33,450 nt of DNA from Bacteroidota bacterium (GTDB lineage Bacteria; Bacteroidota; Bacteroidia; Bacteroidales; DYOH01): NCBI GenBank assembly GCA_020048155.1, contig JAIFMY010000132.1:1-33450 (forward strand), read 5' to 3'. The first letter of the stretch is position 1; every line of letters begins with the position of its first letter. The notes under the pieces were generated by a model that searched no databases, was not told the DNA's origin, and saw only the letters and a list, made by a program, of their open reading frames with translations. The position numbers and the translations under genes were made by a program. This document shows, piece by piece, positions 21,672-25,218 of the stretch.

Positions 21672-22136
21672 ATGAATCAACATAGCGCCAATGCACCTAA
21701 CTCACCGCCAATTATGGAAAAACCGCAGTTTTCAATTCCGGAGCTTTCTAAAGCTGACCTTATAAAAGAATGGATCAGACGTGCTGATGAAGATTATGGT
21801 GCGGCTAAGCTCATACAAGGTCAGGTACCAGAGTATCTATATACAGTATATTACCATTGTCAGCAAGCCTGCGAAAAGTACATCAGGGCTTACCTTGTGA
21901 GTAAAGAAATTGAGTTTCCTGAAAATACGCAACTCAGTGGATTGATTAATAAAGCATCTAAACTTACCCAAATTCCATCCGAATTGTTTACGGAAGCCGA
22001 AGAAATAGATTATTTGGTCGTAAAGTTTAGATATCCACTTGATTTGCTCAGTAATACTGAAATCGATTTTGTGAATCTTCTTGCAATGGTCGCTCACTTC
22101 AGAGAATATTTTGTAAGCAATATTCAAATTGACTGA
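21672..22136 (+). CDS. HEPN-domain protein
   Basis: This 154-residue soluble protein carries a HEPN domain (about 28-148). Family features are WIRRADEDYGAAKLI at the start of the first helix, then VYYHCQQACEKYIRAYL (59-75) and KFRYP (118-122). HEPN proteins often act as RNases or as partners of MNT nucleotidyltransferases. A full R-x4-6-H RNase motif is not obvious here, and no MNT antitoxin gene is adjacent. The ATG is 11 bases after the stop of the sigma-54 regulator, so the two are probably co-transcribed and may share a pathway. The first 25 residues are low-complexity and likely disordered. Confidence 0.85.
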   Translation: MNQHSANAPNSPPIMEKPQFSIPELSKADLIKEWIRRADEDYGAAKLIQGQVPEYLYTVYYHCQQACEKYIRAYLVSKEIEFPENTQLSGLINKASKLTQIPSELFTEAEEIDYLVVKFRYPLDLLSNTEIDFVNLLAMVAHFREYFVSNIQID

Positions 22137-22205: not shown

Positions 22206-22952
22206 TTAGTCGTTCGAAGAAAAATAGGATACCAAGCGAAGAATTTCGAGGTAAAGCCAAACCAATGTTACCATCAGACTAAAGGCTGAGTACCATTCCA
22301 TAAATTTAGGTGCGCCCATGGCCACTCCCTCTTCTATAGTACTGAAATCCCAGATAAGCACCAGCGAAGCTACAATTACAATACCCAGACTGAGCAATAT
22401 ACTCAACGGGCCACCATCGTGCATGAAGCCCATATTTACTCCAAACATTCCCAGTATCCAGGTAAGCAGGTACATAACAAAAATACCACCCATAGCTATC
22501 GTTAAGCCCATTTTAAACTTCTCGGTTACTTTTATCATACCGCTTTTATATACAAAAAGCATAGTCATAAGTACACCGAAAGTAAGCAGGACTGCCTTAA
22601 TTACAATACCCTGATACATAGATGCGAACATTGCTGAAATTCCTCCAAGTACCAAACCCTCAGCCAAAGCATATACCGGTGCACCTATAGGAGCCCATTG
22701 TGGTTTGAAACTTATAACCAGCGCAACTATGAACGCAAATATACCACCACCTATCACCCAGCCCATTACTTCGCCGCCGCTAAATGCACTGCGCCATACC
22801 ATGGTAGCTGTAGCCATTGCCAACAACAAAAGAATGATGGTTTTGTTGGCTACTCCTTGAATTGTCATTGTCTGAGAGTCCGATTGTGAAAACGCCATCG
22901 AACGCCATTTATCCAGATTTAATGCCGGATTTGATGATTTTCCAATTTTCAT
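22206..22952 (-). CDS. Bax inhibitor-1/YccA family membrane protein
   Basis: This 248-residue inner-membrane protein has seven predicted transmembrane helices after a polar N-terminus of about 35 residues. The family pattern is clear in APIYALAEG-like APVYALAEGLVLGGISAMF, in KSGMIKVTEKFK and in LIWDFSTIEEGVAMGAPK with its conserved aspartate pair near the pore. Bacterial members are linked to calcium leak and to control of the FtsH protease, but the role of this subgroup is not settled. It is the last gene of a minus-strand operon, 32 bases after the AlkD-like gene. Confidence 0.93.
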   Translation of the reverse strand: MKIGKSSNPALNLDKWRSMAFSQSDSQTMTIQGVANKTIILLLLAMATATMVWRSAFSGGEVMGWVIGGGIFAFIVALVISFKPQWAPIGAPVYALAEGLVLGGISAMFASMYQGIVIKAVLLTFGVLMTMLFVYKSGMIKVTEKFKMGLTIAMGGIFVMYLLTWILGMFGVNMGFMHDGGPLSILLSLGIVIVASLVLIWDFSTIEEGVAMGAPKFMEWYSAFSLMVTLVWLYLEILRLVSYFSSND

Positions 22953-22984
22953 ATTACGAATTGATTTTGGTTAAACTTGTTTAT

Positions 22985-23668
22985 TTAATGGTGAGGATGT
23001 ACTCCTGTGTACTCTAATTCCATGAGAGCCTCTTCCCCAATCCAGCGCAAATATATATTATTTTCTGATTGGAAACTAATGGCAACCTGTTTGGCTAATG
23101 TATTGTTAGCCAGATTTCTACAGCCATACGAACTCAATGCCCTTGCAATAGCCCTTCTTAGGTGTACATTCTCAGTGTTTGCAAAAAAATTAATCTTTTC
23201 TAATAATTTTTTATCAAATTCTATATCTATTTGTATATCAAATTTATACAATTTGCTCGCTAGCAAAAATGCAGTTTGAAGTACGTATGGATTGGTGGAA
23301 ATGAATAGACTTATGCAAAATATTTGAGAATCAGGTATATGTGGTAAGAAGTACATGTTTATTTGTTCTGCGAGTTCAGCATTATCAAAACTGAGTATCC
23401 GTTCCATTACCCTTTCTGCTGCTATTTTGTCTGGTTCTTCAAGCATAAACGACAGTATTTTGGTTTCTCTGCTACCAAAATTCCAAAGCAAGTTCGCCAG
23501 TTGCGTATCGGGCGGCATACTCTTGGCTAACTCTTTTAACTCGGGCACCGAAACCCCTCTGCTGTTTACATATGTTACATGGTGTTGGTTCATCGAGTTT
23601 ACAACATCACCATTTTCCATAGTTTCCAGACGTGAGAGTATATAATTGTATGATTCGAGAAAACTCAT
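22985..23668 (-). CDS. AlkD-like / HEAT-repeat protein
   Basis: This 227-residue soluble protein is made of helical HEAT-like repeats. The segment GVSVPELKELAKSMPPD followed by LANLLWNFGSRETKILSFML resembles the N-terminal part of the DNA alkylation repair (AlkD) family, where glycosylases excise alkylated bases. Later repeats such as NVHLRRAIARALSSYG also fit. I cannot confirm the catalytic aspartate or the aromatic residues of AlkD, so it may be a non-enzymatic relative. Its ATG overlaps the stop of the upstream gene by four bases (ATGA), which indicates translational coupling with the P-type-ATPase-like protein. Confidence 0.7.
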   Translation of the reverse strand: MSFLESYNYILSRLETMENGDVVNSMNQHHVTYVNSRGVSVPELKELAKSMPPDTQLANLLWNFGSRETKILSFMLEEPDKIAAERVMERILSFDNAELAEQINMYFLPHIPDSQIFCISLFISTNPYVLQTAFLLASKLYKFDIQIDIEFDKKLLEKINFFANTENVHLRRAIARALSSYGCRNLANNTLAKQVAISFQSENNIYLRWIGEEALMELEYTGVHPHH

Positions 23669-25218
23669 TGTTGTTCATTTTTAAATTTTAGAAGTATAAA
23701 ATATTTGTTCACCAGGTTGTTGGTTGTTTGCACCGCTGTGTTTGCCAATACCACATGGTGTAAATGTAGCGGCATTAAAATTACAAGAAAGACTAGGACA
23801 ATATTGAGCGTTAGCCCCATGGTTAATCTCCAGTCAATGTGCTGCTTAATATTTACTGCAAAATCTAGTATTGTTTGTAACTCCTTTGCAGATGCTATGT
23901 GCATGCTATTCTCAGAAGCTGGCACTATATTATTTTCAGGATGAATCAAAAATGAGAACGCATTATTTTTTTCATGGTTTTCTGCAGCACTTATCCACGC
24001 CAGTGGTGCTTTTGCAGAGAGTCTATTTACCAGAGCCTGCTCCTCATTACTATTTTCGCACACATATATTTTATCTGTTTTTAAACTGTTTTTAATCGAC
24101 AGATTAGATGGATGTTCATGTTTACATATTATCGCATTGTTGAACTGTAATTTGTTGGCAATGCGTATATATTCAGAAGCATCTGGCAGCGTATTTTCAG
24201 TGAGCGAAAATTGAGCTATTACTTTTTCATCAAGTATTAGGTAATAATCATATTCTTCCGGATTATTTTTGAGTACTTCCGGTTTTACATTGGTCAAGCT
24301 ATATTTTTTACCTTCTGCATCTTGGCCTGTAACCATAGCTTTTTGGGAAGAAATAATCTCAATTTGTTTTATATTTTCCTTGTTTTCAATTTCCTTTTCT
24401 AGTGCTTGTGCAACTTCTGGAAATGATTGCGCCATGAGCTGCGCACATATGCTCAATATGGTATCTCGCTTGTACGACCATCTGAAATTCAATTCTGTAA
24501 GTTTGAATTTCCCATCGGTAATGAGTCCCGGCCTGCTAAATAGAAGTATGCGCAAATTGCCTATTCTTTTAATAAGTGCAACGCTTGGTTTGGCATGCGC
24601 TCCAAAAATCTTTTCGCGCTCAGCATACCTTGCCGTTATATGATACAGGTAACCAATGGGCGTAAATACAAGGATAAATTGCAGATATACAAATCTGTAT
24701 ATAAAGACTTCAAATTGTATATATTGCACAAAATACAATGCATACAGAATACCACCGCCAACCAATAGCAAAACCAGCGTGCCTTTTACTTGAACACCCA
24801 AAAATGCTGAAGCCGCCATTTTCTCATCTTTATCTCCGGCGAAATACATATAGAGCACCCCTTGTATAGCTACATAAATATTGAAGAATGTAAGTAGCGA
24901 TGGCAGAAATGGTGAAAAAAAATGAGTAAAATGCAATATACTAATGGTGAGTAGTATAAAGGTAAATTGCAGCAACATAATATGCTTAAGGGTACGGCGC
25001 AAAGTGATTAACCACCCAACCCAAAGCAACACACTGATAACTATAGTAATAACTTGACTTACAGCCCCAAAATATAGAAGGGTGCCATTGGCAAATGCAG
25101 ATAAAACCAGTAATAATATGGCAGGTTTGTTCCTGTATTTTTGTATAAAACCCATAAAGCGATGCTTTTTGTTGAAAATTGCGTTGATAAAGCTTTCGCA
25201 AACATAATTGAAAGGCAT
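23665..25218 (-). CDS. P-type-ATPase-like membrane protein with all catalytic motifs lost
   Basis: I find no simple annotation, but the layout follows a P1B (heavy-metal) ATPase. FTPIGYLYHITA (185-196) sits where the CPC helix would be. Forty-one residues later, F-S-R-P-G-L-I-T-D-G-K (227-237) aligns without gaps to FDKTGTLTEGK, with S228 in place of the phosphorylated aspartate (known spacing about 43). QSFPEVAQAL (264-273) stands where SEHPLA would be. TLPDASEYIRIANKLQ (343-358) matches the start of the P domain. The final NIKQHIDW plus two helices resemble the last two ATPase helices. The TGD and GDGxND motifs and the actuator domain are missing. It cannot be a pump by the usual mechanism, so a regulatory or scaffold role is inferred. 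Length is 517 residues. An alternative ATG is at 25155, and a possible -7 element TATGTTTG (25206-25199) would favour it. Confidence 0.7.
   Translation of the reverse strand: MPFNYVCESFINAIFNKKHRFMGFIQKYRNKPAILLLVLSAFANGTLLYFGAVSQVITIVISVLLWVGWLITLRRTLKHIMLLQFTFILLTISILHFTHFFSPFLPSLLTFFNIYVAIQGVLYMYFAGDKDEKMAASAFLGVQVKGTLVLLLVGGGILYALYFVQYIQFEVFIYRFVYLQFILVFTPIGYLYHITARYAEREKIFGAHAKPSVALIKRIGNLRILLFSRPGLITDGKFKLTELNFRWSYKRDTILSICAQLMAQSFPEVAQALEKEIENKENIKQIEIISSQKAMVTGQDAEGKKYSLTNVKPEVLKNNPEEYDYYLILDEKVIAQFSLTENTLPDASEYIRIANKLQFNNAIICKHEHPSNLSIKNSLKTDKIYVCENSNEEQALVNRLSAKAPLAWISAAENHEKNNAFSFLIHPENNIVPASENSMHIASAKELQTILDFAVNIKQHIDWRLTMGLTLNIVLVFLVILMPLHLHHVVLANTAVQTTNNLVNKYFILLKFKNEQQ

Follow-up and report, generated by a model that had tools for sequence, protein, structure and literature searches.

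The window (the whole stretch of 33,450 nucleotides analysed here, from genome G000) carries on its minus strand an open reading frame at 23665..25218 that starts with ATG and runs for 517 codons with no internal stops, as an earlier sequence-only reading of the same DNA had described it. The frame shares 4 bp with the downstream gene at 22985..23668, an overlap that fits the translational coupling proposed in that reading. Its GC content by codon position (0.45/0.29/0.34) is close to the values of the coupled neighbour, which matches the expectation for a real gene. The features of the locus are as follows, with the basis for each in parentheses.

22206..22952, minus strand: gene for a Bax-inhibitor-1-like (BaxI_1) membrane protein, which follows the HEAT gene in the array
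22985..23668, minus strand: gene for a HEAT-repeat/DNA_alkylation-type protein, coupled downstream (family match; overlap also in G001)
23665..25218, minus strand: pseudo-P1B-ATPase gene, 517 aa (ORF call and homology)
24652..25122, minus strand: N-terminal hydrophobic helices, residues 33-189, without an intervening actuator domain (hydropathy)
24655..24663, minus strand: T-P-I instead of the CPC metal motif of M4, residues 186-188 (family alignment)
24505..24570, minus strand: P domain first half, residues 217-238, KRIGNLRILLFSRPGLITDGKF (CopB match and profile alignment)
24535..24537, minus strand: Ser228 codon, in place of the phosphorylated Asp of DKTGT (alignments)
24196..24480, minus strand: N-domain, residues 247-341, predicted fold like the CopB, ZntA and ATP7B N-domains (AF2 model)
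24418..24426, minus strand: residues 265-267, S-F-P aligned with SxHP (ten-copy alignment)
23935..24195, minus strand: P domain second half, residues 342-428 (profile and family alignments)
24118..24126, minus strand: residues 365-367, C-K-H in place of TGD/SGD (family alignment)
23974..23991, minus strand: residues 410-415, S-A-A-E-N-H in place of GDGxND, without the Mg-binding Asps (family alignment)
23674..23856, minus strand: C-terminal helices corresponding to M5-M6, residues 455-515 (profile alignment, hydropathy)

Kinship with P1B heavy-metal ATPases

Searched alone, the window protein matched the ATP-binding domain of CopB over residues 217-281 (phmmer, E 0.002) and P1B models in a single-sequence NCBIfam scan (E 0.002-0.004). 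Within LFSRPGLITDGK, Ser228 stands at the Asp position and the alignment to the CopB DKTGT region is gap-free, as the sequence-only reading had it, with a one-residue gap further on. Four single members of the family matched TIGR01525 (best 2.7e-8), and two matched the copper model TIGR01511 (1.2e-8). When a profile of nine family sequences was searched against the PDB (177,635 distinct sequences), all 10 matches were to P1B ATPases, with a best E of 1e-8; on this search, chance resemblance to P1B ATPases is rejected. An hhalign comparison of six members with 52 canonical ATPases aligned 281 columns with few gaps, from just N-terminal of DKTGT through M5-M6, at E 1e-27 (a single-comparison E-value). 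Homology to the P1B superfamily thus spans the P-N-P body in both profile and single-member matches, and once the relatives are added the window protein is, judged by its sequence, a homologue of P1B heavy-metal ATPases far beyond chance. The P-domain-like start and last two helices claimed earlier are indeed kept, as seen in the profile alignment to canonical P1B ATPases and in the hydropathy. Pfam has no family for the pseudo-ATPase; no member matches any Pfam family, E1-E2_ATPase included, at E 0.01 or better. The P1B order of elements is likewise preserved, and the spacing claimed with it is close but not identical: by hand count, 41 residues separate the M4 Pro from the Asp position in the window protein, versus 43 in the canonical pump L047.

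An AF2 model of residues about 200-445, built from two family sequences only, gave an N-domain (model residues 48-142, protein ~247-341) with core pLDDT mostly 70-83. In VIA-align, which re-ranks only the candidates of Foldseek, this N-domain was closest to CopB (3skx; Z 9.0, 88 residues, 3.0 A), followed by ZntA (4umw; Z 8.8) and ATP7B (Z 8.1), and the top 38 rows were P-type ATPase chains throughout; as such structures were included in AF2 training, the match lends support to P-type descent, short of proof. The P-domain part of the model is unreliable (pLDDT <50), and its putative HAD Rossmann assignment rests on sequence; a full-length AF2 model from two sequences was unusable (pLDDT 38). 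The best-modelled part of the protein therefore resembles P-type N-domains, and the relatives can be aligned across the DKTGT region, where the Asp is replaced and the loss of the motif is shared by all; neither fold nor homologues spoke against the pseudo-ATPase interpretation of the sequence-only reading, which is supported.

Family membership, motif loss and constraint

Relatives were found in ten further Bacteroidales genomes, all within the order of the window's genome. The members are G000 (the window), G001, G018 (GenBank record JAOZVK010000222.1, Bacteroidales bacterium), G063, G085, G167, G259 (copy split across two contigs), G278, G774, and G775, with a fragment in G389. A first search, across 99 relatives, gave two short members with frames of 504-510 aa alongside canonical pumps; the set was then enlarged by iterated profiles and by inspection upstream of HEAT-gene homologues. 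A scan of genome contigs gave one relative only, that of G018. The pseudo-ATPase is missing from most Bacteroidales sampled, and in class and phylum samples no further member was seen among the matches listed, which looked canonical: frames were nearly all ~600 aa or longer, the few shorter ones were taken from their position to be contig-edge pieces, and motifs were inspected in fetched loci only. In a tree with 52 canonical rows, the nine pseudo-ATPase rows formed one separate clade (support 100/99) on very long branches of up to 10 changes per site; the branches are too long for the tree to have placed the family in a specific P1B subgroup.

At the site of the phosphorylated Asp, the ten copies in the alignment have S, L, Q, S, A, E, D, S, S, and S; the lone Asp is not followed by TGT, and DKTGT is intact in none of the ten. 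TGD/SGD and GDGxND are degenerate in every copy, their positions scrambled within a region that is retained, so that the sequence-only reading was right about the loss of these motifs and wrong in taking the regions to be deleted. The His of SxHP is gone from all ten, as in the change from HP to FP noted earlier for the window protein, its Ser has become Trp in eight, and the glycine motifs of the N-domain are eroded. At M4, CPC has become xPx, with Pro retained in 7/9 members that have a letter there and Cys in none; the TPI reported for the window protein is one such case. The actuator domain with its TGE is absent, again as first read: N-terminal inter-helix loops are at most 24 residues long, compared with ~145 in L047. 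No metal-binding domain was found in the pseudo-ATPases. With the catalytic motifs and the actuator domain lost, a phosphoenzyme cycle should, by established P-type chemistry, not be possible in these proteins.

Frames of 433-517 codons are open in eight genomes at 15-25% identity; of 300 copies of the window ORF evolved neutrally in simulation, at 0.2 changes per site, not one remained free of stops. Six residues are invariant in the ten copies (N360, D382, Y385, L400, K403, and A404), four of which (N360, D382, K403, and A404) are variable among canonical pumps. For the closest pair, the congeners G259 and G774, dN was 0.27 and dS 1.31 over 191 codons, a ratio of about 0.2 that rests on this one pair of genomes (pyrE of the same pair, for comparison: dN 0.084, dS 0.84); a further 61 C-terminal codons were looser, with dN/dS values of 0.62/1.39. 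These rates indicate purifying selection on the pair, in line with the earlier view that the gene is not an obvious decaying pseudogene. The G774 copy has stops in its N-terminal part (L078 1200-1663) and the G259 copy is without most of the N-terminal helix region (L011 1492-1660), the soluble part being open in both; the helices are thus under less constraint than the soluble body, and the gene can erode. The length of the N-terminus and the number of helices differ between members, and the very long branches imply that constraint is weak or shifting.

Gene neighbourhood and resident P-type ATPases

In G063, G167, G259, G774, G775, and G085, pyrE directs into the pseudo-ATPase gene from just ahead of it on the same strand, and the order pyrE, pseudo-ATPase, HEAT gene, BaxI gene recurs in several families; genes of the relatives were named by likeness to window genes and by reading their sequences, not by family search. 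Overlap of the pseudo-ATPase with the HEAT gene, followed by BaxI, is seen in the window and in G001. The array of G063 and G167 runs from the pseudo-ATPase through an oppositely oriented gene to the HEAT/DNA_alkylation-type gene, BaxI, and an aminotransferase-like gene. HEAT and BaxI are adjacent in G001, G063, and G167; in G278, BaxI lies one gene away from the pseudo-ATPase. The HEAT gene was present in 5/5 carriers and 31/94 other genomes (Fisher p 0.005), a figure biased by kinship and by the discovery of one carrier via the HEAT gene itself. The pair of HEAT/DNA_alkylation-type and BaxI_1 genes (window 22206-23668) recurs in L086, L087, L093, L096, L097, and L098, forming a recurrent two-gene unit in Bacteroidales with or without the pseudo-ATPase; since L086, L097, and L098 have the pair and no pseudo-ATPase, position is no proof of a common function.

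Two further observations concern the surroundings. Window positions 21672-22136 encode a HEPN-domain protein directly after a gene resembling a sigma-54-type response regulator. In three genomes of one family, a lipoprotein-like gene with the motif IAYGHTSHGSQ separates the pseudo-ATPase from the HEAT gene, on the strand opposite to the pseudo-ATPase:

L038 8889-9758, opposite strand to the pseudo-ATPase: lipoprotein-like gene
L040 5413-6387, opposite strand to the pseudo-ATPase: lipoprotein-like gene
L044 1900-2763, opposite strand to the pseudo-ATPase: lipoprotein-like gene

TIGR01494, a detector that was positive in 14 of 14 control genomes, revealed no P-type ATPase of any kind in G000 (91% complete), G018 (96%), G063 (99%), and G085 (77%), two of which are thus at least 96% complete. 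Canonical pumps do occur in the carriers G001, G167, and G278. Unless such pumps were missed in assembly gaps, the pseudo-ATPase works in cells without a P-type ATPase.

Possible roles and comparison with known systems

Taken together, we consider it probable that this gene is a selected, non-pumping descendant of a P1B ATPase whose catalytic machinery has been lost; the inactivity of the family is the well-supported part of this explanation, and the protein would be expected neither to hydrolyze ATP nor to pump metal. An ancestral P1B ATPase would have lost the site of phosphorylation, the motifs for Mg and phosphate, the nucleotide-binding His, the metal-binding Cys pair, and the actuator domain, and would have retained the body of M3-M4, P-N-P, and M5-M6. 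Anchored in the membrane by M3-M4 and M5-M6, the P-N body may have become a binding or adaptor surface that uses the newly fixed N360, D382-K383-x-Y385, and K403-A404 of the second P-domain half to bind a partner protein or a ligand that does not belong to the P-type ATPase family. This adaptor role is the weaker part of the explanation, a tentative proposal that falls somewhat short of an even chance.

Slow decay is an improbable alternative. Loss of function by a P1B ATPase in an ancestor of these Bacteroidales, with the gene persisting since then without a job, would agree with the very long branches, the N-terminal stops of G774, the patchy distribution, and the variable length of the N-terminus, but the simulation indicates that neutral change would not have left such long frames open in eight genomes, and both the dN/dS of the closest pair and the invariant residues not found in canonical pumps speak against it. 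We give negligible weight to the idea that the protein has no P-type kinship and that its DKTGT-like stretch is a coincidence: the missing Pfam match and the weak single-sequence matches of the window protein (E 0.002) would suit it, but the matches across P-N-P are specific to P1B ATPases, and some members reach E 1e-8 by themselves.

The remaining alternatives assign the protein a different job. Its N-domain might bind nucleotide without hydrolysis and signal via the membrane helices, which we think unlikely; this fold is the best-modelled part of the protein, and TMEM94, a pseudo-P-type protein, binds AMPPCP with micromolar affinity and with no ATPase activity detected (PMC12134183), but the ATP-contacting His of SxHP is lost from all copies, Trp replaces the Ser in most, and the glycine motifs are eroded. 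ATP-independent passage of metal or another solute through the helices would draw on the retained helix set and M4 Pro, but both metal-binding Cys residues are lost in all members and the varying number of helices suggests that the conserved function lies elsewhere than in the membrane part; a passive transporter or channel is hardly to be expected. One version of the sensor or scaffold role suggested in the sequence-only reading, regulation of a canonical P-type ATPase in the same cell (such as by a dead subunit in a heterodimer), would be a natural role for a dead paralogue in the three carriers that have pumps, but the four carriers with no P-type ATPase detected argue against a general regulator of this kind, and we regard it as very improbable. 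Another formulation of the non-pumping P1B descendant is, in our view, rather likely to hold: in a prokaryotic family of dead P-type ATPases, a membrane pump would have been turned into a binding module that does not pump, kept in a recurring neighbourhood and found also in cells without a working P-type ATPase. If true, the family would show the capacity of the P-N scaffold without its chemistry; being a small bacterial family with all catalytic sites gone and new residues fixed, it offers a tractable sequence set for testing.

Pseudokinases and pseudophosphatases are well known; pseudo-P-type ATPases are, to our knowledge, rare and disputed, as with TMEM94. Our literature search turned up no account of a dead P-type ATPase in bacteria, which is not proof that none exists. 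Compared with the P1B ATPases (CopA, CopB, and ZntA; TIGR01525 and TIGR01511), the pseudo-ATPase is alike in its P-N-P body, M4 Pro, M5-M6, order of elements, near-identical spacing, and significant profile match; it is unlike them in having no intact DKTGT, SGD, GDGxND, SxHP, or CPC and no actuator domain. TMEM94, a human ER protein and disputed P-type Mg2+ ATPase, is a parallel in its P-type-like A/P/N architecture: a cryo-EM study found no ATPase activity, TGES, or catalytic cycle under its conditions (PMC12134183), whereas according to another paper it is an active ATPase, named ERMA (PMC13322241). TMEM94 differs from the present family in being eukaryotic, with ten helices, an A-like domain, and an Asp (D417), and it is not of the P1B type. 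Plasmodium guanylate cyclase beta also contains a degenerate P-type ATPase domain (PMC6592433), which differs in being eukaryotic and fused to a cyclase, its Toxoplasma counterpart being P4-like.
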